NCBI GenBank assembly: GCA_000467715.1 | Contig: AJFK01000357.1 | Coordinates: 1 to 51,169 of the forward strand | Reading direction: 5' to 3' | DNA from: Hysterium pulicare CBS 123377 | Taxonomy: Eukaryota; Ascomycota; Dothideomycetes; Hysteriales; Hysteriaceae | DNA length: 51,169 nt | Part shown: positions 1 through 31,391 of the stretch, one piece after another | Numbering within the stretch: the stretch's first letter is position 1 | Layout of the letters: the number at the start of each line of letters is the position of its first letter | The notes under the pieces: model-generated | The model's database searches: none | Told to the model about the DNA's origin: nothing | The model's input: only the letters and a program-made list of their open reading frames with translations | Translations under genes and position numbers: made by a program

Positions 1-3000
1 CGGGGGTAATAGAAAGGCTTACCGCAAAAGGTACACGATCGGAAGTCACTATAAAATTGGAAATCACGAGCGGTTCGGGCCTTTTGAGGCGTCGAGGGTG
101 GGATGATGAGCACAGTAAGACGGGAACCATCGCGACGGGTTTTATTCTGGAAATGATGAAGTGAGCATTAAAGGAACGAAAGGTGTAGCGGGCTTACTGC
201 GCCACATTGTGGTTGTCCTGAACCTGGTATCGGGATCCTAAAAGCACCCTAAATAGAGAGCACAGTATGCAGAGTCCAGGGAAAGCCTGGAGTGATTATG
301 CTTTCTGCAATCATCCAGGTGACCACTTAGGAGGTTGTGCTGCTACGCGGTTAAAATGTGAGCGGCTAACGTCAACATGGTCCCGAAGGAGTGTTTTCGT
401 TCCGTTCGACCTATCAGAGGTGGCCTTGGAGTTCAGTATAGGTTGCATTTGTCGAGAAGGTGAAAGCGGAGCTCGGCGCTGACCACCATCAGAATAAAAT
501 ATGGGAGCAGCCGTCTGAAACCTAATGGAGGTGTATAAGTAAACAATAAATAAGAAGAGCACAGCTGACGGATAAGCATGCTGTGTTACCAAACACTCGG
601 CTCAAAATACGGTTGGGAATAAGACGATGACTTTGCAGAGATGATGATGTGAGCAACGCAAGAAAAGAGATGAATGACGAGGAGGGGAGAGCAAAAACCG
701 AATGCAAAAGGAGATGCAAGAAATGGGTGGTCACTGCAATCGTTCTTTCGAGCAATTCTACTGTGGTAGAGGGCTCGTTGACCGCAACTTCCATCATGGC
801 AGTAGGGTAGGAAATGAGCGACCGGATTGAGAAGGAGGGAGTGGCAATAGCTATTACTTTTGATCGTCGGACAGTGTTATCTCAAAGGCCAAATCTGCGA
901 CCTTTCCTACATAGGAATAAAGATGCAGTTTCCGTGTGGCTGTCGTTTCAGAGGATTGCCGCAAAGGCACCTGCCGCTTGTCTCGAGGCAAAAGGGACGG
1001 CTCGAGCATCCCCTAAAGCCGTTGTTGTGGAACATGCAGTTTTGTGGACAGCATGGTGATAAGCACGTGGGGATATCTGCTCGCATGGGCGCGTGCCCCG
1101 TCTATCGAACAGCGTGGGGGCAGAAGTGAGGTACTCCACAAGGGGCGTGTCCACATGATGAACGTCGGGAGCTTTGACCTCCAGAGAGCAGTAAATCTGG
1201 GTCTATCATATCTTTGCAACTTTGCTTTGACACGAGTCTGCATCACTCGTCTCGAAGGAATGTCATCGGCATGTCACTTGCCTGTTACAACGATAAGAGA
1301 TGCAGAATCCAACACAGCAAAAGGTCCGGCGTTGGGTTCGGTAGGATTCAGGATGGGAGCGCGGCGAGACCTCCGCATCCCCTGAGATTTGCACTGCAGG
1401 CGACCCAAAGCCTCCCCAAGCCTCGAGCTACGGTCCCGAGTCCACGAGAATGGCAACATTTGCTTTTTACCAACTAGGGAAATAGACGATGTAGGCGCCA
1501 GAAAACCACGCGACGCATCGAGCCTTGTGCCCCGAGTCTACGGCTTGGGAGACCCGAGAGCTTGCTCGGGTGCGTCAAGTATTGCTTTCCCCATTATTGA
1601 TTCGTATCGTGGAGTGGTCTATGATTTCAGCTACGCTATACTGAGTCGTGAAATGAGGAACAGCATCCAGGGTGGTGGTCAATCCTATGCGCGGAACGCG
1701 ATTCCAGTTCCCCCCGTTGCGCTAAGCAGCGCTCCGGACCCTTAGACGTTTCTGCTAAGCTGATTCGAGACCAGGGAAATCTTAAAAGTCGGAGGCTGGC
1801 ATCAGTTTCGGGACTCGGGGCAGAAACGGTTCGAAAGGCGGACGCCATCGGCAGATAGCACAGCGAGAAGGAAGGCAATATGCAATGCGGAAGAGGGGAT
1901 TCATGCCGACCACGAAGCCGTGGCTGAAACGCCTTCGACGTGATTGTTGGTGGGGAGCAAGGGCTGACTGGCATGGAGATTGGGCAGCAAAAGGAATCCT
2001 CGGCGTAACCACATGAATATAGTCTAAGATGTCTTTACGACACCAACCTGCTGTATGTTACAAGTGTGTTGAGACTAACAATTGGAAAGATAACTTCTCC
2101 GCTTCTTGCTACAAGGCTTTTCGAGAAACGAATCGATATGCAGAGCAAACACACAACAGCCGATGGCTTCGCAGCGTGTGGAGGGTGACAGCCACGCGAT
2201 TCGTGCAGCTGCGGAATCCCGCTCATTGTCCCGTTCCAAATTTGGTCTAAGCCCGCGCCAGGTCCAAACTGTCGGGCTCCTGACCTTCAGCCAAGTGTCC
2301 GGTGGTGTGGCACGTCTTACGCCGCCTTCGTGGGTAAACTCTCCAAGCTGGCTTTCCCCCCATGTCTGCTGTGTGCCCAAGTTTGTGGGGTGCACGCTGA
2401 TGGTCGCGACCAATCTCTCTATCGATGGGACGGTGCAAGCCTCTTCGTGTTTGGGACCTGCTCCGTATGGCCTGTCTTCCGAAATGACACTCCAGAAATG
2501 AAAAAGCATTCCGCTCGCTGTCCTCCATGCCATGGGATTGGGTTTGTTTGAGACCTTTCCGTTGCCAGCTGCGCAAACACCATCATTTTACGACGTTGAG
2601 TATGACACAATCTGACCTTTCGATACAAGATTATGTTACCGGACATACGGCAAGATACCTAGATGGGTAAAGTCGAGCTTCAGAGTCTACTTTCCTTAGG
2701 ATTGTCCGCCGCCAGTGCTGGTGCTTTGAATTCACTTCGCCGGCAAGAATCTGATTTGGGGCCTAAATATATAGTAGTGTAGTACCGTGTCGGAGCTGCC
2801 GTGTTTCCTTCAAGCTGCTAAGAATATAGCTCACCAAAGCAGTGAAATGTTGATAAGTTCACAGTGAACATTAACCTTGAGCTGACGGAATGCAACAGCT
2901 TTGTCCTAGTTCAGCAGCTCCATGAACACGATACGGAGCATAAGGTTCCACTAGGCGGTAGCGGAGTGCGCATTTTGATCGACTTCTGTACAACCGGCAA

Positions 3001-6000
3001 ACTACTATTATTTACTCGTCTCACCGCTCCCCATGCATCGCGAAATCGGCCGTTCCACAGCGGTGACGACGATCATAGCAGTTGCACATCCGGAGTCCCA
3101 GGACCTGTGCTGATCAACTTGGCGACATTTTGTGCGACCCTTTAACAGTGTGAGACATCAGCAAGGGAAGTATAGCAATAATACTTGATTGGACCCGGGT
3201 AGAATGGGAAGATGTAGTCAAACCATTCTCTGGGCGATCTGGGATCCGGGGAAGCTGAAGATACACCCGGTTCCCGTCAGCTATACTTCTTTCACCCTGA
3301 TCCTATCCACAACTTTCCAAAATAGGTGGTCATTTTCACCTAACCATCTAGAAGCGGCTATTGCATCCTCGTCGATAAGATCCTAACTTACGTACAAAGT
3401 ACGAGGTGACAGATGATCTGGAAGGTCTCCACGGACTGACAATCTGCTCATCTTCGACTCGCGTGCGTACTGTTGATGGTCGAGACATGAGAACGACCTC
3501 TGATAGTGTGGCGAGTTTGTAGGCGAGCCGGGTATTTGTGGGGTAGCGAGAGAAGAAGACTGAGCACGACAGACCTTCCGGAGCCGCGGACCGTGAAACG
3601 TCTGGAAAAGCTTGCCCTGGTCACAAGATATGGGTTTGGATTTGGCCAAGGAGTTTTTGGCCATACTTGGACGTAACCCGGTTCAGGCAATGCAAAGGAA
3701 TGTGAGAAAAGCCGATGCCTGTCCTATGTTTGCAAGAAAAGTTCGTATATACTCTTTCGGATCGAGGGAACCTGGAGGGTGGTAGCGATAGCCAGGTGCA
3801 AGAAGCAGGTTCTGTCGCAAGGCATAGTTGCCTGGCAATAACCGACATGAGTCTTGCGAGCTGTATGTACAACGCATGAAACAGGCTGTGCTTTGGTATA
3901 TCACGCCGCATACAGGATGTGGTTGCGTCGCACATGATTCTTGTACTGTGCAGTGGTTTGATGCAGGCTTTCAGATGACCTCGAGGGGTAGTAGTCTTTG
4001 TAAACGTTTAACGTAGCATTATTGGGCACAATTCTGTACCTCTCCAACCTGGAACAATAGCGACCTCGATGCTCGTGCGCAGCAACTCAAAAACAGCAAG
4101 TGCCCAAAATTGAAAGCTGGGGAAGGTTGTCTCATAGTCAAGAGAATTTACGTACTGGCTGTCCCTCGTGTCATGTACCCCCATGCGACGGACGTCGCCG
4201 CGAAATTTCACCAACAATCTCAATATCACACGGGCATCAGATTTCTACTGTTCTTTTGCTGGGAAGGAATGACCTGGAAAGTGGGTTATCGTGAAGCGCT
4301 TTCGAATCAACGACGCTTGAGAAGCAGCTGCAACAACGGTGGCCTTCCCAAACGAGCAAGTCACCAGAACGTGCGGAGGATTATCTGGGCCGCAAGGAAA
4401 AGTGGATTCAGGCATGTGACTGTTGTCAGTGCTGAGCGTTTCGCACTTAGGATAATGAGGCGGAATTCATATGGATGGATCGTCCAAAGACCGACACCAA
4501 CAATTAGGGACTACTATGAGGCTAGGGGGGCTCAAAGAGCAGCATAGGAATAACGAAACCACGGTCTCATAGATCGTAGGTCCAAGCATTCCTCCCAGGG
4601 TCCAGAATCCGAACATCAGCTTTTGCGAGAGTCAGGCACTGGGGCGAGGCGAACTCAAGCTCCTCCATCAGGCTAGACTGGCAGGGAATTGCCGGAAAAA
4701 GCGAAATGAGGAAAAGAAACGTCGCGCGGAGAGGCTGGATGAAGTCGCGCGACAGAGGGAGGATGGAGATCCTGGCCATCCTTCAGCGTATCAGCAGCAC
4801 GAAAGTGTCTGTAACAGTACGGCTGAGTCAGCGGTATCCATGAAAGCAGGCGGAGAATGCCTATAGGCCGTGGACCCCGGCTGGGGAGCGACAGGAGGCG
4901 CTCATGTGACTGGTGATGGGCAACGTGTGACGCTGCCACAATTGCTGCGGTGAACGAGCCTTGGTCAAGGTACAGGTGTGCAATATGGGATTGATGGGCT
5001 TCAGCTCAGCCGTGTTCAGCGTCTTCCATGTTCCCCGAGAGGAGCCAAGGATGGATAGTCTGAGTGACAGGTGAATGAGACTGCTCGCAAAGAAGGTTGT
5101 AACGCCGGGGGGCAACGAGTCAGCGTCTTCGTCGGGGCTTCTGGAAGAGCAACCTTCGTGCTGGCCAGCCCTCGTGATTTATTGCTCCCCACGCCGAGGC
5201 TGGCGCTGAGCCCCCAGGAAACCCCATGTGGTCCCGAAGCGGTCGCGGCAATTCGTTTGCAACAGAGCCCATTTTTGGTCAGGCTGAGCGCTCGCGCCGG
5301 ACGTCCATCACTCGCGCCCAATGGTGATGGCAGCATTCCAATTCCAAAAGCGACGGTGAGCAGAGTGTGAGAGTTGCGGTGCGGACGGCGGCATGGCGGA
5401 GAGAGGCGCGACGGCGTGCTTCATGCGTGGCTGTAAGAGGGTGGCATTAGATAGTGAATGACTGCTTGCTCTTGTCAGCGCAGAGTCGCGGTGTCTGCCA
5501 GTTAGTCCGGAGCTTTTCCGTCAACCCACAGGCCACGGCGCGAGGACTGGGTGGTCTGGGTACGGGGCGGGACTCGTGTGAAAGTAACGCATACCCCCCT
5601 GACCGTCCATCCCTTGCCCCTAGTCGCTGCAAACGCCTCCGTCCCACTCTCTCGGTACATCAGTCAAGCTTGGGGGTGGGCGCTGGGCGTGCTGTCTGAG
5701 TGTCTCTCCCACAGGCTTGCCGGATTTATTATCTGCCACCAACCCTGCTGCCATTTCCCGACAAAGGCCGTCACCAATTCCCAACCCACACCACCACAAT
5801 ACACGCCCAGGACCAACACGCCCAGCTCTCCTCCCCTACCCAGGCTGCCCTTCGAACAAATCCACGGGACGACAGAAGCGTTATCCTCCTTCCGACATCC
5901 TTATGATTCCTACAGTTGGTGCTTGATCTCAACCGCGGCTCCAGTTCCTTTTGCGGGCTGCTGTCGATCTGTTGACGCAATACCCTCAACAGTGACGAAA

Positions 6001-23440: not shown

Positions 23441-25108
23441 ATGGCCGAACTAACCTTCGCAACGCTCACTCTCCTAAAAGAAGTCTACCTCCTCTCTCGC
23501 TTCATCTCCCAAACAGCCAAATCAGCCGCCCACTCGACCACAGAGCGCTCGACGCTCCACAACGAACTCGAATACGAGCATCTCTACATCCGCAGCTTCG
23601 GCCTTCTGTTCTTCCAAAGCGAGGGCGTTTTCGTCCCGCATCAGGACCTCAACCAGGAGTGGTTGCGGAAGATAGGCTGGATCTTAGATGGACTTCGACT
23701 CGCCGAATGTGATTATGCTAAGTTGGCTGCGGAAAGGGATGGGCGGTATAGGAAGTTGAGTCCGTATCTCGCCAGTGGGCCGGCTGTTGATGATGAGCGG
23801 AAGGTCATTGATTTTGGTGCTTTTGATCATGAGGCACGGGAGATGGAGATCAGTGACCAGGTCCAAATATTGCAAGTCAGAGCCTCGCCGCCACAGCCGA
23901 CACCGACAAGTGCCAAGAAATCGATCTTCCCGGCCTTGGATTGGAGATGGGCTCTGTCTGAGAAGAAGCAGCTGCAACGTATTCTCGCAACATCTCGTGG
24001 CTGGACTGGGAAGCTTAAAGAGTTGGTACAGCTCACAATGGTCGTCAATCAGCGATATCACGTACCAGCAACAGCGTCGTTGCAAAGCCTTACTAAAAAT
24101 GATAATGCAATGTTTCTTGGGCTCTCGGCGCACGCACGAGTTCGTCAGAACATTGAAGCGGCTTCAACTACCACCGAGGATTTAGAGATCGAAAACGCCA
24201 TTTTGGAACTACCTAAACAGCGGACGACGCTAACACCAGGGATATTGCGAAGCAACTCTATTCAAAGCAACGTCCTCGTAGAAATAAAGAGTCTGCCCGA
24301 AGTTGTGTCTACTGAAGACGAAGAAAAAGTGCTCCATCTAGCGCAAATACTCAAATTATCTAGCGGAACGGATCTTTCTACGATTCCTTTGAAGGGTTAT
24401 TTACGGCTTCCACACGAGTCGTCCTATGCCTTCGTGTTCGAACATCCTCCAGGCACGACGGATGCACCTCCCGTGACGCTTTTTGACCTCCTCAGACGGC
24501 CTCAGTCTATCACTCCGGGTCTTTCGTTGAGATATCGCTTCCACATTGCCCAGAGCATTGCGAAGTCCCTGGCTGCCCTCCATGCCGATAATTGGGTACA
24601 TAAAAGTTTTCGTAGCCGCTCGATAGTTTTTTTCCGAGAACAAGGCGGGAGATTGATCTATGATAAGCCGTATCTAGTCAACTTTGAGTATTCCAGATCG
24701 AGTAACAGCGATACGAGTTGGACATTTGACGACGATTTGGAAAAGAATCTGTATCGTCACCCACAGAGGCAACGCCCGCCGCAGAAGTCATTCAACCAAA
24801 TTCACGACCTGTATGCACTTGGTGTTGTACTGCTGGAGATCGGGCTGTGGCGAACCATCTCGAGCGTCAAGGAGCAGGCTCAGTCGGTGATTGATCCGGA
24901 TATTGTTCTCGACCCAGAGACTTTGTCAGAGTTCTATGTGACTACGGCTGAAAGGGATCTGCCGCATACCATGGGTGACTCCTATGCTGCAGCAGTTGCA
25001 ACTTGCCTGAAAGGTGACTTTCCCGTGGCTATTGCAGAGGCTGCGTTCCCCCTCATTGTCTACGACTTGGTAATTCAAAAACTGGATGCGAAGAGCTTGC
25101 TTGAGTGA
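23441..25108 (+). CDS. Fungal pseudokinase with HeLo-like N-terminal region
   Basis: Uninterrupted single exon of 555 residues, ATG at 23441, TGA at 25106-25108. Residues 1-200 are helical and leucine-rich, begin MAELTFATLTLLKEVYLLSR and resemble the N-terminal regions of fungal HeLo/prion-inhibition proteins; that assignment is tentative. From about residue 275 a protein-kinase fold is visible: LVEIK with the beta-3 lysine K283, a FVFEHPPG hinge, ALHADNWVHKSFRSRSIVFF (HRD replaced by HKS, H387) and LVNFEYSR (DFG replaced by NFE, N414). These are followed by LYRHP and DLYALGVVLLEI. Loss of both catalytic aspartates points to a pseudokinase. Such proteins sit in accessory regions and are linked to fungal allorecognition and immunity-like signalling; the role here is inferred. 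It converges on its frameshifted paralogue, with 155 nt between the stops. Confidence 0.75.
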   Translation: MAELTFATLTLLKEVYLLSRFISQTAKSAAHSTTERSTLHNELEYEHLYIRSFGLLFFQSEGVFVPHQDLNQEWLRKIGWILDGLRLAECDYAKLAAERDGRYRKLSPYLASGPAVDDERKVIDFGAFDHEAREMEISDQVQILQVRASPPQPTPTSAKKSIFPALDWRWALSEKKQLQRILATSRGWTGKLKELVQLTMVVNQRYHVPATASLQSLTKNDNAMFLGLSAHARVRQNIEAASTTTEDLEIENAILELPKQRTTLTPGILRSNSIQSNVLVEIKSLPEVVSTEDEEKVLHLAQILKLSSGTDLSTIPLKGYLRLPHESSYAFVFEHPPGTTDAPPVTLFDLLRRPQSITPGLSLRYRFHIAQSIAKSLAALHADNWVHKSFRSRSIVFFREQGGRLIYDKPYLVNFEYSRSSNSDTSWTFDDDLEKNLYRHPQRQRPPQKSFNQIHDLYALGVVLLEIGLWRTISSVKEQAQSVIDPDIVLDPETLSEFYVTTAERDLPHTMGDSYAAAVATCLKGDFPVAIAEAAFPLIVYDLVIQKLDAKSLLE

Positions 25109-25263
25109 ACGCTTGATCCTATAGTAATAAGGAGGAATTCGTGCCCTTTGATGGCTCAAAATAAAATCAAGTAGTTTTGAATTGAATTCCATGTACCCCA
25201 AGTGATCAATGAGGATAGGGATCGAGTGACTGCGAATAAGGCGACCCGATAGGTGTGTAGAGA

Positions 25264-27196
25264 TCATATCGGGCGCTGCCTATAGCCCGTAATGAGATGG
25301 TTGAGCCTTCGAACAACCTTTCTGTAGAAGCCTGCTTGAAGAGTCGCAGCGTTGGCCGAGTTATTTTCATTTGCGCCTGGTTCCAGCCCAAAAGTTTCAG
25401 GTCCTTCTATACAGGCCTTAACAACCTCTGCATACACCGGACCTAAGGCATCAGAGACACCATCGAGATATTGAGGCTCACCGAGCAATCTCCCCCGCAC
25501 TTTTATGGTTGTGGAAGGTCGCGCATTCTTGAGGTCGGCTATACCTAAAATCCTATCGAGTGGCTTCCAACACGCGATTTCGATGAGCACGAGTCCGAGA
25601 CTGTACAGATCATATGTCTTTCTATAGTAATGGCTAGAAGAATCACTTTCGCGGTTGCTGGAACCCTGCACTCTTGGATGCCTATAAAGGTCGAAGTGTG
25701 GCTGCTCAGGAGGCTTTTCCGTCATAGCCTCATTCAGCGCCGGCCTAGAATAGTCAAAGCCAGAGACAAGTGGGTCCTGGAAATCGACTTGTCCTCGAGC
25801 GTCGCGAAAGAAGAGGATCGATTGGCTCCGAAATCCCTTATGTAGCCAATTGACGGCATGTAAGTAAAGCATGCAGGTGGAAATCGCCGAGGCAAGTTGC
25901 AGTCTGATTTTCACCGAAACTTCTGATTCCGACTTGAAGATGCCCAGAAGTGACACCGGTTCCAATGAGCCAACTCGCACATGGCTCGGCACTTCAAAAA
26001 ACTAATCCATAGCGACAGTGGGATTCCCCTTTGGGATCACAATCATCGAAATAACCAAGGCAATGGGGCACGCACAACTCCTTCGGTTTATTGCCATCAT
26101 TCAGCAAGACAGCAATCGACTCAATACGCTCGGTAATCTTAGGATCTGGGTCATTGTTGATCGTGAGAGGATCGTAGTTCTTCCATTCCACCCAAATAGG
26201 CCTCAGAGTACGATTCTCCATACGACAAAACCCTGGGGCTGGTTGGTCCCCTACGTCGTCGTCGTCGTCGTCATCATCCCGCAGAATGTTGATTTTCTTG
26301 CGAGCGAGCTGAATGTCTGGCCTCGAATGAGGTGCCTTGTTCCCCGTTATAGTGTCCAATTCCTTTAGCTGTTCCTCCCGGTTACTGTCCGTATCATACA
26401 TCATTGTATTAATCGCCTTAAATCGTGCAAATCTGGCCATATCTTTACCGTTCTTTAACCCTTGCTGATTTTCATCGGTTGATTGTTTCATGTTAGCGGG
26501 AAGAGGCCATATTCTGACAGAGCTCGGCTCTTCAGAGTCTGGAAGTCCGGCAGGCCAAACGGCATGAACCAGGTCCAGTATATCGTTAAAGGTCTCGCAC
26601 AATTGTAACAACTCAAAATTGGTTTCCTCATCCTTCTCAAGAAGAATTTCTAAAGTCGAGGCATCCAGAAGGTTCCTTAGATTGTCATTCTTTTCCGCTA
26701 AAGTGGCTATCGTACGTTCGAACCTCTGTGGCATGATTTTCCCGAGTTTTGGGTCAGTAGGTGCCGAATCCATTCGAGCCTCAGGTGACTGCACTATGAT
26801 ACTGGAAAGCATGGACTCCAGCAGCAAGCACGATATTGCTGGTAATTGACGGACTGAAGTTGTTTCGATCTCACATGAGCTATCCTCATGATTATGACTC
26901 TCCGGCCGAGCTTCTTGTTCGTTGAGGTAGTATTCGAAGGCTGTCTGCTGCTGAATGAGACTGTTCAAAATGGTCTTTTGACTCAACAGGACCTCCGGTG
27001 ATATTGGAGATGCTTGTCCGCCAGACAAACCAACGACAAAGCTCCAATTGAGGAGACGGAGCATTTCAAAATCAAGCCGTCTACGTAGAAAAGAACAGTG
27101 TTGCCATACATTAGGGTCCTTAGCAAAGGAGTCATAATCTGCATGAGTCAGCTCAAATCGATGTGCCTTGGGATAAAAGCATACTTCGCAGACAGT
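25264..27196 (-). pseudogene. Frameshifted HeLo-like pseudokinase paralogue
   Basis: Two minus-strand frames form one protein of about 640 residues. The upstream frame (from about 27196 to the TGA at 25996-25994) holds a helical region with LRRRLDFEMLRLLNWSFVVG. It goes on through an eight-Asp run (GTC repeat, 26254-26277) to WVEWK (beta-3 lysine) and YGLVF. The downstream frame resumes at once with EVPSHV and carries LHAVNWLHKGFRSQSILFF (HRD changed to HKG), VSGFDYSRP (DFG changed to GFD), LYRHP and DLYSLGLVLIEI, ending at 25264. The break falls in a run of six A on the plus strand (25996-26001), one base too long. No splice sites explain it and the downstream half has no ATG. The 5' end is unclear: the first ATG in frame (27064) lies inside conserved sequence, and homologous-looking sequence upstream continues in another frame. 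Decay or an assembly error are both possible. Confidence 0.7.
26254..26277. repeat. CGT trinucleotide run encoding poly-Asp
   Basis: Six CGT units followed by CAT CAT on the plus strand encode a run of eight aspartates on the minus strand, in the linker of the frameshifted pseudokinase. It is a likely slippage-prone site but keeps frame. Confidence 0.8.
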
Positions 27197-29082
27197 CTAC
27201 GAGAGACCTGTAAGTGAATAGGAAAGGAAAAAGTTGGCCAGATTGTATTTTGGGAATTGCAGCTATGTCAATGAAGGTCCTCTCCTCACTCGACTGTAGA
27301 GTTCCATGGATCATCGCTGCCGAGGAGTCTGAAGCAGACTCGGCATCCCGTGTCTGTACTTTAAGACTATTTGCAAGGAGCTGGGCCACATTATCCACAC
27401 TATCATCGTCCTCTTCTATAAGCTGTCAATATTAATTGAGAAAACGGCTGTATTGAGCGCACATACCGAGCTCATATTCACTGTCTTCCGTCTGATCTAG
27501 AGCGTCATCACTTGTCTGTGTAGAAGTTATCATCTTTTGCACTCTTAGCTCATCAATGCAGACGTCGCAAAAGAGAGCGTTGCGTGGATATCTCTTCCGT
27601 TTCGTGTCACCGGTTATTGAAATGACGATAGTTTCTGCCTGCGGCCTCAAGTCCGGTCTCCTTTGGATCATTGGTAGGATCCATGGTAGTGTGAGTGAAA
27701 CAGATTCATTTTCCTCTTTCGAGAGTTTGTCAATCCAGGAAACGATTTCAGCTTGGCTTTCGTGAAATATTCCGTCCCCACCAAGCCATTCATAAAGGTC
27801 TCGAAGTGTATATCCTGCGAGTACAGTGACAACCTCGAGGAAGAGACATCCTAAGGAATAGACATCAGATCTACGTCCCCTTGATTGACCGTGTGCTACT
27901 TCTGGAGCACAGTATCGTAAACTTCGCAGAGCCTGCGGTCCATTGGAAGTGCTCTTGGCGATCTCGCTAAAATCCAAGGCGATACCAAAGTCGGTGAATA
28001 GCAGAGAAGTCTGGGAGGGAGTTTTTTCAATAATACGTTCTGTGGCTTAACATCCTTATGTCTAACTGCCCTTCAAGGTCAGCAAAGTCGCTGCTTAAGA
28101 TGGGGAACATACTTTTGTGTCCGTGCATGAAAGCAAGCGCCGAGGAGAGACAACCGAAGCAATATCCGAAAATTTTGTCCTCATCGTCAAATTCAAATGG
28201 TGAGGGATTCTTCAGGAACTCATAGAGATCACACTCGGCGACTAGATGTAAAAGAAGGCCAAGGCAATACGGACTCTGATAAGCTCCTAAATACTCGACA
28301 ATGTGTTGATGGCCGCTGAGCTTCTGGAGGCTCCGAATTTCAGTTCGGAAGCTCTGTCGCATTCGTTCTTCCGCGGTAGGGGTCAGGCTGAAGGTCTTGT
28401 GGGCAACTACGTTTCCGGTCAAAACCATCTCAACACAGTCAACCCTGGCAAAGCCACCAAACCCCAGACATCTGATTGTACGAAAAGGAAGAATCTCATG
28501 GTCCTGATATTCAGCCCAATCATCCTTAAGACCACGCAGCTGTGCTCTGTACTGTGCCTTGAAAAAGGAGTTGATAGCGTGGCTGTCCTTAAGAACAGCC
28601 CGAAGTGTCGCAATGTCTAGGAAAAGATCTCGATCCGTAATCTTGTGCTCAAGGAAACTCGGAAGCAGGTCATGCCGTTTGATAAGATGGAGAATCAAAC
28701 AAATCCGGCTCATTTCCAGGAATTTATAAGACGGGGTCCATGCCGGCCTAGGTTCCTTATCGCACAATGCATTGTAGCACCGTTCTAACAGCAACGCCAC
28801 TTTAAGGTCCGTCTCTGTGTCAATAAAAGTCGTAGATTTGCTTTGGCTTTGCATGTAATCTACCGCAGGTAGGTCTTCATGCTTCGGAAATAATTGCCAC
28901 GGTACCGCTTCGACCAGCGGATGGAGCACTTGAGAGTTTCCCGAGATGCGTCCAGCCTCCCCCTTTTGAACTGATGAATTTTTCAGTAAGCTGGTTCTCC
29001 TTGTTGTGCTGGTCATAGAGCCGTTCATCCTCCGATGACGCGGGGAAAAGTCAGGCTGTGGAGCAGCCTCATCCGACTCCAT
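27153..29082 (-). pseudogene. Ser/Thr protein kinase with one frameshift
   Basis: Exons 29082-28113, 28065-27467 and 27415-27153, introns of 47 and 51 nt, about 610 residues. Unlike its neighbours this is an active-type kinase: glycine loop GFGGFARV (207-214), VAHK with K229, catalytic loop RHKDVKPQN (D328), TDFGIA, YCAPE and SDVYSLGCLFLE. Residues 1-200 are a Ser/Thr-rich tail and a helical region of unknown type. Between KPQNVLLK and LLFTDFG the frame slips by one base at a run of six T on the plus strand (28022-28027). One extra base would restore continuity, and no intron of workable size fits. The C-terminal part past the kinase is acidic (EEDDDSVDN) and then reads FTYRSLVDCLRSMLLSQ, which looks like the start of the next gene's HeLo-like region. 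The two may once have been one reading frame, or may overlap. Functional if the slip is an error; otherwise a recent pseudogene. Confidence 0.7.
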
Positions 29083-29477
29083 GCTGTTTTTGCAGAAGGG
29101 TCATATGTATCATGTAGGCCCTGTAGAATATCCTCGATCAGTTGTCGAGTGTATGAATCCGACAAACCGAGCCTAGAGTCGGGCGAAATCCATGCTGCTG
29201 CTCCCTAATGGAACCCATGGCGAACAGCAAGAGGCGGGGTGCAGAACTGTCAGCTGAAAGCTTGGAAAAAAGTAAGGGTGTGCTTGAGGGCGCAGCAGGC
29301 TTCCTCGAATGGTTTACAGGTCTGAGAAAGGTCACTGCAAGCTTTAGCGAGGGATGGGTCATTAATAAGCGGCCCGTGCACGTACAAGTACATATTCTAA
29401 TGACTTCCTGTCATCATGCCTTTCTCCTTCTCAGTACTCCGTACTCAAGCGTAATAGCCAAAGCATCTCACACTCGT

Positions 29478-31391
29478 TCACACAAGCACAACAAGCCTCT
29501 CCTCAAAAGCTTCCAAACGCTCCAAAACTCCATCCCCACCGTCATATATCCTCCCCTTCCCAATTCGACTAAACCTCTCTTCTCCCTCCCGCTCCAACAT
29601 CTTCACCACAATCCCTTCAAAACACCATCTCTCAAAACAAATAACAGGAATGATAAAGATCCGTTCCTGTCTCCCATAAAAGTCGGCTTCGCTATCAAAG
29701 AAGAAGCCAGCGTTATCATGCTGATATCCAATTTCTGGAGCGCTGAACTTAGGACACCTGATCCCGCTCGTCGTATCCCACGTCAGACGAATTAACTTTC
29801 CCTTCAATGTAAGTTGCGCGTACCGCAGTTGACCGAATATGTTGCCCGGGTCAACGAGATCTAGCTGGTAGTCGACCACGGAGGCAAGCAGCGATCGAGG
29901 ATGGCTATAGAGACCGTTATGCCGTGGGAAATGCTGGAAAACTTCAACCGCCGCGTCTGTGCTTGCCCAACTCCAGGATGGGGCCCGATAGGTGCTAGTG
30001 ACATCTGGTGGTGTAACTGGTACTGATTTTCTCGGTATACTCCACAGCAAACTATGCGGCAGTTCGTGGGCGAAGAAACCTGCGACGTATTCATCACTTC
30101 CAAATACAGCGGCCATATACTCTGCTAGGCCTGCAAAAGCTACAAACTTGTCTGTGTCGGTTTTCGTAAGTTGGCATCTTGTGTATTTTTGAATGAGCTC
30201 CTGCCAGTATATGGAGTTTTCCTGAGTAACCACACCAATCTTTGGTGGAAGCTGGAAAGGGGCTTTTGGGTATAGTTGGACTGGTATACCATCAGGAAAA
30301 GTTTCACATTCGTTCTGTGATTCGGTGCATTCCCAAAAGGCTTGCTTTGGTCCAAAGGTCAGCACGCGTGGAGAGAGGATCCGTTCCTGAAGAACCCATC
30401 CCCGCGATGCTAATGGGCTTGATTGATGACCTTGGTAATGTAAATTCTGAGGTACTAGAATATAAGGAACAGGCGCTGACTCGGATGATTCTGATGGTAG
30501 CTGGATGGTGTAAGGAAAGATATGTGTTGGATCTCGAGTCGTGAAACAGCTGTCCGATGCGCTCGGCGCGCGAGAGGAGGCAATGCATACAATACAGTTT
30601 GCATATATAACTCGCATTGAATTGGCATGACGGGCCCAGTCCTCTGCACTGCCTTCCCCTGATTGGATGATGCACAAGGAATCTATCCAAAGATACTTCA
30701 CTTGAAGCCACTTGCAGATTTGAATCGCATTCTGGAAGTTGGTTGGAAGATTTTTAGAAGGAATTCTTTCTTGCATCTCACCCATGCATTCTTTTTTGAG
30801 TGTTAGAAAAGTTGGATGTCGCCCCCAGCAATGGCTCAAGGCTGCGAATGGCTCATGCGGAGGATCATCGTCACATATGACGAGACGTGGCTCTTGTCCA
30901 GAGACATCTAGTAGTCTCGGAGGATGGAATCGAGGGTTTCGGTCAAGTTCACACTTGGAATGTTTCGTTAAGCATTTTTGAAGCCACGATAGAGCAAGTC
31001 GTCCAACTCTACCATCCGCTGTCATGGACGGCATGTTTTCATAATGATCATGTTGCGTGGACTCTAGATCATTCTGAACGATGGGCCAAAGTAGGAAATT
31101 ACAGTCAATGTTTATGGTGTTGAAATTACTGCCTGATATACAGACTGTAACACCAGAAAGCGACTGGGTTGAATCCGTGTAAAAATTCGACGTGAGCATC
31201 GGTCTTTTTAACAGAGTGTCATAGTCCACTCTAGGCTTGCTTAAGTAAGCGAATTCCTCCTTGACGATAATGCAAATGTAGCATCCACTTGCTGCTGCTG
31301 CGATGAGGTCTCCTAGAGAGTCATGGTGCGGCCTCGGATTGCCACTCCAGAGGCCGTTCTGAAACATATCTGTGCATGCCTTGCAAAGCAT
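29478..31391 (-). CDS. HET-domain (heterokaryon incompatibility) protein
   Basis: Single exon, 637 residues, intact. The N-terminus has the usual CxxC...HHDSLGDLIAAAASGCYIC pattern (3-40) seen before HET domains. The HET domain runs from about 180 to 330: FAALSHCWG (182-190), KYLWIDSLCIIQ (232-243) and MRVIYANC (259-266). The C-terminal part carries WVLQERILSPRVLTF, a common HET-protein motif, and PSWSWAS. HET domains trigger cell death when incompatible hyphae fuse, acting with partner signalling proteins; the domain is distantly TIR-like. Adjacent kinase-like genes on the same strand suggest a shared allorecognition or defence context, which is inference. The start at 31391 is the first ATG before the conserved Cys pair. 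Confidence 0.92.
   Translation of the reverse strand: MLCKACTDMFQNGLWSGNPRPHHDSLGDLIAAAASGCYICIIVKEEFAYLSKPRVDYDTLLKRPMLTSNFYTDSTQSLSGVTVCISGSNFNTINIDCNFLLWPIVQNDLESTQHDHYENMPSMTADGRVGRLALSWLQKCLTKHSKCELDRNPRFHPPRLLDVSGQEPRLVICDDDPPHEPFAALSHCWGRHPTFLTLKKECMGEMQERIPSKNLPTNFQNAIQICKWLQVKYLWIDSLCIIQSGEGSAEDWARHANSMRVIYANCIVCIASSRAPSASDSCFTTRDPTHIFPYTIQLPSESSESAPVPYILVPQNLHYQGHQSSPLASRGWVLQERILSPRVLTFGPKQAFWECTESQNECETFPDGIPVQLYPKAPFQLPPKIGVVTQENSIYWQELIQKYTRCQLTKTDTDKFVAFAGLAEYMAAVFGSDEYVAGFFAHELPHSLLWSIPRKSVPVTPPDVTSTYRAPSWSWASTDAAVEVFQHFPRHNGLYSHPRSLLASVVDYQLDLVDPGNIFGQLRYAQLTLKGKLIRLTWDTTSGIRCPKFSAPEIGYQHDNAGFFFDSEADFYGRQERIFIIPVICFERWCFEGIVVKMLEREGEERFSRIGKGRIYDGGDGVLERLEAFEERLVVLV

Follow-up and report, generated by a model that had tools for sequence, protein, structure and literature searches.

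Kinase, HeLo, pseudokinase and HET domains in one block

We analyzed a window of 51,169 nucleotides from Hysterium pulicare CBS 123377 (contig AJFK01000357.1 of assembly GCA_000467715.1; this contig is C277 among the 596 contigs, 37.2 Mb in all, of the genome assembly), in which a first-pass annotation had placed four genes within 8 kb (positions 23441-31391): two related pseudokinases with HeLo-like N-termini, an active-type kinase and a HET-domain protein. In Pfam searches this block contained two DUF7580 pseudokinases (genes A and B), a HeLo domain in B, a protein kinase domain (Pkinase) in gene C and a HET domain in gene D, and the pseudokinase, HeLo and HET domains were all above the Pfam cut-offs. 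Of the four, only gene A is on the plus strand; the other three share the minus strand, in agreement with the annotation. The domains of the four described genes were recovered, except for HeLo in A, but B and C are probably not separate genes, as two introns keep the frame between them (the unit is called B/C below). The features are listed here; the custom hidden Markov model (HMM) of accessory kinases, a group defined below, has 323 positions and was built from nine related kinases.

23441..25108, plus strand: gene A, intact open reading frame (ORF) of 555 amino acids; DUF7580 match at 24446-25030, C-terminal
28113..29082, minus strand: C/B exon 1, N-terminal region of about 190 amino acids and kinase N-lobe; Pkinase 41.2 bits, custom HMM positions 11-147 of 323
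28066..28112, minus strand: putative intron 1, GTATGT...CTGAC...CAG; canonical ends
28022..28065, minus strand: catalytic-loop stretch IRHKDVKPQNVLL, up to an A-run (minus strand) at which the frame is lost; matches custom HMM positions 147-162, in a single frame only
28022..28027, minus strand: frame break 1, six-base homopolymer between the frames of HKD and DFG
27467..28021, minus strand: kinase activation segment (DFG) and C-lobe; Pkinase 34.0 bits, custom HMM positions 162-321
27416..27466, minus strand: putative intron 2, GTATGT...TTGAC...TAG; canonical ends
27139..27184, minus strand: putative intron 3, GTATGC...CTGAC...CAG, within the HeLo domain; canonical ends
26645..27232, minus strand: HeLo domain of B/C, containing intron 3; found with Pfam and a custom profile, end points approximate
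25996..26001, minus strand: frame break 2, six-base homopolymer in the pseudokinase; the homologous stretch of the paralogue on C339 is open
25264..26001, minus strand: C-terminal portion of B/C with the DUF7580 pseudokinase lobe; DUF7580 34.7 bits, match at 25300-25923
29478..31391, minus strand: gene D, intact HET-domain protein of 637 amino acids; HET 89.4 bits, match at 30384-30848

Genes C and B as one unit

Genes B and C probably form a single gene on the minus strand that encodes an active-type kinase, then a HeLo domain and then a DUF7580 pseudokinase, because two canonical introns (27466-27416 and 27184-27139) hold the frame across the junction. When introns 2 and 3 are spliced, a single frame of 635 residues runs from the DFG region of the kinase through the C-lobe, a linker and the HeLo domain to the N-lobe of the pseudokinase. 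The Pkinase matches of gene C lie on two frames. The HeLo domain of the B exon scored 27.4 bits against Pfam (cut-off 23.2) and 25.7 bits as a spliced peptide; splicing of intron 3 did not raise the Pfam score, but the match then began 13 profile positions earlier. Against a profile of six HeLo domains from the same genome, the domain scored 29.8 bits unspliced and 33.6 bits once intron 3 was removed, and the best of 200 shuffled sequences reached 5.5 bits. A phmmer search of the PDB with the B exon gave no match. The HeLo domain would be internal, after the kinase, if B/C is fused, and N-terminal if there are two genes.

The latter arrangement, in which intron 2 is left unspliced, kinase C ends at 27432 and B begins at an ATG near 27314, is possible but doubtful. 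The unspliced intron does bring in a stop (27434-27432), the ATG at 27314 is in the HeLo frame, and divergent pairs of two genes are known in this genome on C154 and C161. The gap between the genes would, however, be only about 120 bases, the frame is kept across it by two canonical introns, and C426 carries a fusion of a kinase and a pseudokinase. This fusion is a precedent for B/C as one gene, though it has no HeLo match.

Frame breaks in the B/C copy

The kinase domain of gene C covers positions 11-321 of the 323 in the custom HMM in three frames, which correspond to the N-lobe, the catalytic loop and the DFG part. The first frame change is intron 1, and the second is the six-base A-run, which is too tight for an intron. 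The motifs are of the active type (HKDVKPQN and DFG), as the annotation had noted, but they are split over frames that leave no space for an intron between them, and gene C offers no single frame that holds a whole kinase domain together with HxD and DFG. With the same HMM, the catalytic loop and the DFG region share a frame in 13 of 15 related kinases (nine of the 15 had been used to build the HMM), and in the remaining two, on C104 and C227, the frame changes over gaps wide enough for an intron. By eye, an alternative acceptor of intron 1 (CCACAG, 28035-28066) would skip the HKD loop and bring the N-lobe and the DFG part into a common frame.

The second frame break, in B, is a stop beside a six-base T-run. 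These two runs are the only homopolymers of six or more in C/B, and both are at frame breaks; the frames of gene A, with a seven-base run, and of gene D, with a six-base run, are unbroken. The B/C unit may be either recently broken or misassembled at the two homopolymers, as judged from the reading frames, and the copy in the window may be non-functional or wrongly assembled. We regard a recent breakage of B/C into a pseudogene in this strain, with proteins still made only by A and D, as rather unlikely. Such a loss would agree with the lack of room for an intron at either break and with the relatives, which have the loop and DFG in one frame or intron room between them, and one HSP70 gene in the same assembly is open over 570 profile positions, so that frame errors are not everywhere. 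On the other hand, the frames of B/C are open between the breaks, the breaks are at the gene's only long homopolymers, which are the usual site of sequencing errors, and other HSP70 matches contain stops (C438) or are split (C556), although introns are possible there.

The T-run at 25996-26001 directly precedes an in-frame TGA (TTT TGA) and resembles a +1 slippery site, which we take as coincidence. A programmed +1 shift at this run, by analogy with prfB, was considered and given little weight.

Pseudokinase domains and the N-terminus of gene A

Genes A and B were confirmed as related pseudokinases, with DUF7580 matches of 41.9 bits (A) and 34.7 bits (B) over a cut-off of 27. The aspartate at the HRD position is missing in all eight aligned sequences (A, B and their paralogues), where HK in the loop precedes G, A, S or C, and the aspartate at the DFG position is likewise missing in all eight, where the site reads GFE, GFD, GYE, NFE or RLN. 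Both pseudokinases are probably kinase-dead because these aspartates are missing. The lysine of the VAIK-type motif is possibly kept in A (VEIK) and in B, C154 and C161 (VEWK); the position is R, Q, R and H in C316, C339, C56 and C426, respectively.

HeLo-like N-termini had been proposed for both pseudokinases, and HMM searches of the N-terminal regions upheld this for B, as described above, but not for A. The N-terminus of A scored 12.7 bits against Pfam HeLo, under the cut-off of 23.2, hhalign gave a probability of 0.9% over 29 columns, and the HeLo profile from the same genome gave 1.9 bits, with shuffled A sequences reaching up to 7.8. The N-terminus of the A paralogue on C56 was likewise unmatched to HeLo. 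On these scores, a HeLo identity of the N-terminus of pseudokinase A is unsupported. Note that a 30-residue stretch of gene A is similar to the last HeLo helix, which is a hint only.

Kinship with known proteins

We compared family profiles with 177,635 PDB sequences. The HeLo family profile matched HET-s at 2.5e-29. Eight DUF7580-type pseudokinases, including four with HeLo, gave a profile that matched MLKL first (5.4e-10), followed by LIMK1 (2.2e-8) and IRAK4 (4.5e-8), with HET-s at 2.2e-7. When the window sequences and the N-termini were left out, GCN2 (2.0e-9, with no passing stretch), MLKL (2.1e-9) and IRAK4 (9.5e-9) were found. These matches place the pseudokinase with the MLKL/IRAK/RAF (TKL-like) type, without proving it an orthologue of MLKL. 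When six related active kinases were used as a profile, from which the window kinase was left out, all five PDB matches at E values of 1e-30 or better were NEK7.

Kinase-pseudokinase pairs elsewhere in the genome

We counted neighbors of the relevant families in the genome outside the window's contig. Of the candidates, 121 of 244 kinases (PF00069) and 150 of 226 HET genes were scored members, and both lists are incomplete; adjacent matches were merged (kinases less than 700 bases apart, HET matches less than 500), and kinase loci on C277, C104 and C227 and HET loci on C98 and C386 were added by hand. Nine scored MFS genes out of 514 candidates and 19 SDR genes out of 301 were pooled as a control set (n = 28). 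Distances of 2, 4, 6 and 10 kb were picked after the data had been seen, and all four are given, in this order, throughout. The accessory kinases are 31 kinases similar to that of C426, delimited by an E value of about 1e-14 that was also chosen after the data had been seen. As the C426 kinase used as the query is itself in a pair, the counts were repeated without C426.

Pseudokinase loci had a kinase of any kind nearby in 3, 5, 7 and 8 of 24 cases, compared with 3, 5, 6 and 9 of 151 HET genes and 0, 0, 1 and 1 of 28 control genes. An accessory kinase was near 2, 4, 4 and 5 of the 24 pseudokinase loci, where 0.11, 0.19, 0.27 and 0.43 were expected; for the four loci within 4 kb, a uniform model gave P = 4e-5. 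Without C426 the counts were 1, 3, 3 and 4 of 23 (expected 0.10, 0.18, 0.25 and 0.40; P = 0.10, 7e-4, 0.002 and 6e-4).

The four close pairs are on C154, C161, C426 and C501. On C154 and C161, a HeLo-pseudokinase gene is divergent from an active-type kinase gene. The fusion on C426 joins an intact kinase (Pkinase, 135.7 bits) to a pseudokinase (DUF7580, 37.2 bits) in an ORF of 652 amino acids that has no HeLo match. On C501 (1-8500), a TPR-kinase gene (plus strand) is beside a DUF7580 pseudokinase fused to a subtilase (Peptidase_S8, minus strand). HeLo and DUF7580 are both over the cut-offs in three other ORFs (C161, C316 and C339), and the C154 protein has HeLo at 96.5 bits with a kinase-like/DUF7580 half under the cut-off. 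No kinase was found in the inspected stretches flanking the C316 and C307 genes, nor was a kinase domain found in the 4.4 kb inspected beside the HeLo-pseudokinase gene of C339. Pairing of kinases and pseudokinases beyond chance is supported by this recurrence within one genome together with the C426 fusion.

Two further observations concern these loci. The C501 pair looks like a protease version of the kinase-pseudokinase pairing, and the gene divergent from the C339 HeLo-pseudokinase (positions 577-1392 of the stretch taken from that contig) has, by eye, the N-terminal region of an accessory kinase.

The HET gene and other neighbors

The HET domain of gene D (PF06985) is complete (profile positions 1-146), above the curated cut-off and in an intact ORF, so that the annotated HET-domain protein was confirmed. 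Its link to the kinase-pseudokinase unit is statistically weak. HET genes were near 3, 4, 4 and 5 of the 31 accessory kinases (expected 1.04, 1.79, 2.54 and 4.05), which is not significant under the uniform model (4/31 within 4 kb, P = 0.10), and near 0, 0, 0 and 2 of the 86 other kinases; the difference within 4 kb (4/31 versus 0/86) gave P = 0.004 in Fisher's test. Pseudokinase loci were near HET genes in 0, 1, 2 and 3 of 24 cases, with no excess over expectation. A 1077-amino-acid ORF on C259 (positions 2632-5865 of the stretch taken from that contig) contains an N-terminal ketoacyl-synthase fragment (38.6 bits), Pkinase (141.9 bits) and HET (79.6 bits), and on C426 a HET gene is 2.6 kb from the kinase, so that kinase, pseudokinase and HET lie inside about 5 kb. 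Gene D could be an additional effector or a neighbor by chance. On C104 (57000-63000), a kinase gene precedes one for a Ras-like GTPase (by eye), and a HET gene lies in divergent orientation at a distance of about 1.2 kb.

The remaining window ORFs that were run through Pfam encode a TCP-1 chaperonin, MsrB (SelR), MFS and sugar transporters and an F-box protein, or were unmatched. No NLR domain was found in the subset of window ORFs scanned with Pfam, and amyloid motifs were not searched for.

These counts bear on two other explanations of the block. It is unlikely, in our estimation, that the block is a chance gathering of numerous families, perhaps in lineage-specific regions, with no common function. 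The genome does hold 226 HET and 244 kinase candidates in its 37.2 Mb, HET-kinase proximity is not significant against the uniform expectation, the window otherwise has ordinary genes such as those for the chaperonin and MsrB, and a study of Neurospora reports HET genes clustered with lineage-specific genes (PMC10684091). The kinase-pseudokinase pairing is nevertheless above both the uniform model and the counts for HET and control genes, and fusions exist between kinase and pseudokinase (C426) and between kinase and HET (C259).

The other explanation is the signaling module of the first-pass annotation, with a sensing kinase, pseudokinase scaffolds and a HET protein as executor. Its kinase-pseudokinase part agrees with the recurrent pairs and the C426 fusion, but its HET part is weak, and the order from pseudokinase scaffold to HET executor is unsupported. 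C259 does join a kinase and HET, and HET neighbors are commoner for accessory than for other kinases; the pseudokinase loci, however, are not enriched near HET genes (1/24 within 4 kb), and a HET executor would be unnecessary, since HeLo domains are themselves described as membrane-targeting death effectors in a review (PMC12881547). Being itself of a death-effector type, HeLo in B/C is no less likely than the HET protein to be the executor. We consider the module with a HET executor distinctly improbable.

A possible kinase switch for HeLo-pseudokinases

The interpretation that we tentatively prefer, without going so far as to call it probable, is that the block is an immune or cell-death type gene set built on a unit of kinase and HeLo-pseudokinase, in which the kinase switches a HeLo-pseudokinase death effector by an MLKL-like logic. 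In the working form of the gene, an active kinase, fused or adjacent, would phosphorylate or otherwise switch the DUF7580 pseudokinase; the switched pseudokinase would free the HeLo four-helix domain, which would then oligomerize and attack the plasma membrane. The logic would be that of RIPK3 and MLKL, though the kinase is no relative of RIPK. Partner or regulator might be the part of pseudokinase A, HET protein D might give the locus a further output for death or signaling, and any role in allorecognition would be presumptive. A bolder version is possible but appreciably more doubtful: B/C would be one polypeptide with an active kinase, a HeLo death domain and a pseudokinase, a single-chain 'RIPK3-MLKL-like' protein, and one of several such pairs or fusions controlling membrane-attacking death by phosphorylation and not by amyloid templating.

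Several observations weigh against the preferred interpretation. The window's own B/C copy has two frame breaks. The related kinases showed no RIPK kinship, their nearest match being NEK7 and not RIPK3, and the kinase and pseudokinase are therefore not an orthologue pair of RIPK3 and MLKL. The reduced profile ranks GCN2 ahead of MLKL, which leads IRAK4 by 2 bits, and gene A alone matched IRAK4 first (0.0062) and MLKL last of 30 (0.82). With HET genes as the yardstick, the excess of accessory-kinase pairing is modest (Fisher's test, P = 0.14, 0.02, 0.03 and 0.01), and without C426 just one of 23 pseudokinase loci is less than 2 kb from an accessory kinase (P = 0.10). Among the 24 pseudokinase loci, 17 have no kinase match inside 6 kb, and a kinase is within 4 kb of two of the five HeLo-pseudokinase loci (C154, C161, C307, C316 and C339). 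The kinase type was looked at in the seven pairs within 6 kb except C56 and C596, and that of C347 is by eye of another type. On C426, ORFs that look by eye like a short-chain dehydrogenase separate the fusion from the HET gene. Finally, single-sequence AlphaFold models were unusable (mean predicted local distance difference test scores of 34.6 for A and 39.1 for the B exon).

Comparison with known systems

Like MLKL, the executioner of animal necroptosis, the HeLo-pseudokinases combine a four-helix bundle, here its homologue HeLo, with a pseudokinase behind it that lacks the HRD and DFG aspartates. At several loci an active kinase is the neighbor or fusion partner; MLKL is also the top PDB match of the eight-sequence family profile. 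They differ in that the kinases are nearest to NEK7, MLKL is second once the window sequences are left out of the profile, the HeLo domain is internal if B/C is fused, and phosphorylation would here be a presumed step. Fungal HeLo effectors, as described in the accessible literature, are set off by amyloid signaling from NLRs. In HET-S/NWD2, a HeLo effector likewise has its activator gene next door (PMC9815663), whereas here a kinase takes the neighboring place and the C-terminus of the HeLo protein is a pseudokinase instead of a prion-forming tail.

Some fungal HeLo-like (HELL) domains sit on kinase or pseudokinase proteins, and the review that mentions them calls for wider study of HeLo and four-helix-bundle (4HB) proteins in fungi (PMC12881547). 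In contrast, the window domain is HeLo (PF14479), and the accessible part of that review describes neither a second active kinase paired with or fused to the HELL proteins nor a HET neighbor. Plant tandem kinase resistance proteins such as Pm24 (PMC6997164) combine a kinase and a pseudokinase in one chain, as does C426; they are plant proteins with a likeness by architecture, whereas the window unit has HeLo in between. The Cryphonectria loci vic1, vic6 and vic7 (PMC7849911) have a HET gene tightly linked to a second, different gene. Unlike these vic/het loci, the window locus is known from its genes alone. Another Cryphonectria locus, vic4, reportedly encodes a kinase.

No description of kinase-HeLo-pseudokinase pairs or fusions was found in the titles and opening parts of abstracts that were listed, and no mention of DUF7580 in the literature searched; most subscription journals lie outside this search. 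As far as these sources go, HeLo-like kinase and pseudokinase proteins are already in print, and none describes an active kinase recurrently paired with or fused to them.

Should the pairs of kinase and HeLo-pseudokinase prove to be genuine modules, fungi too would have 4HB-type death proteins under the control of a kinase. The intact pairs on C154, C161 and C426 make the idea of kinase control directly testable, and the recurrent kinase/HeLo-pseudokinase pairing and the fusions merit a comparative study.

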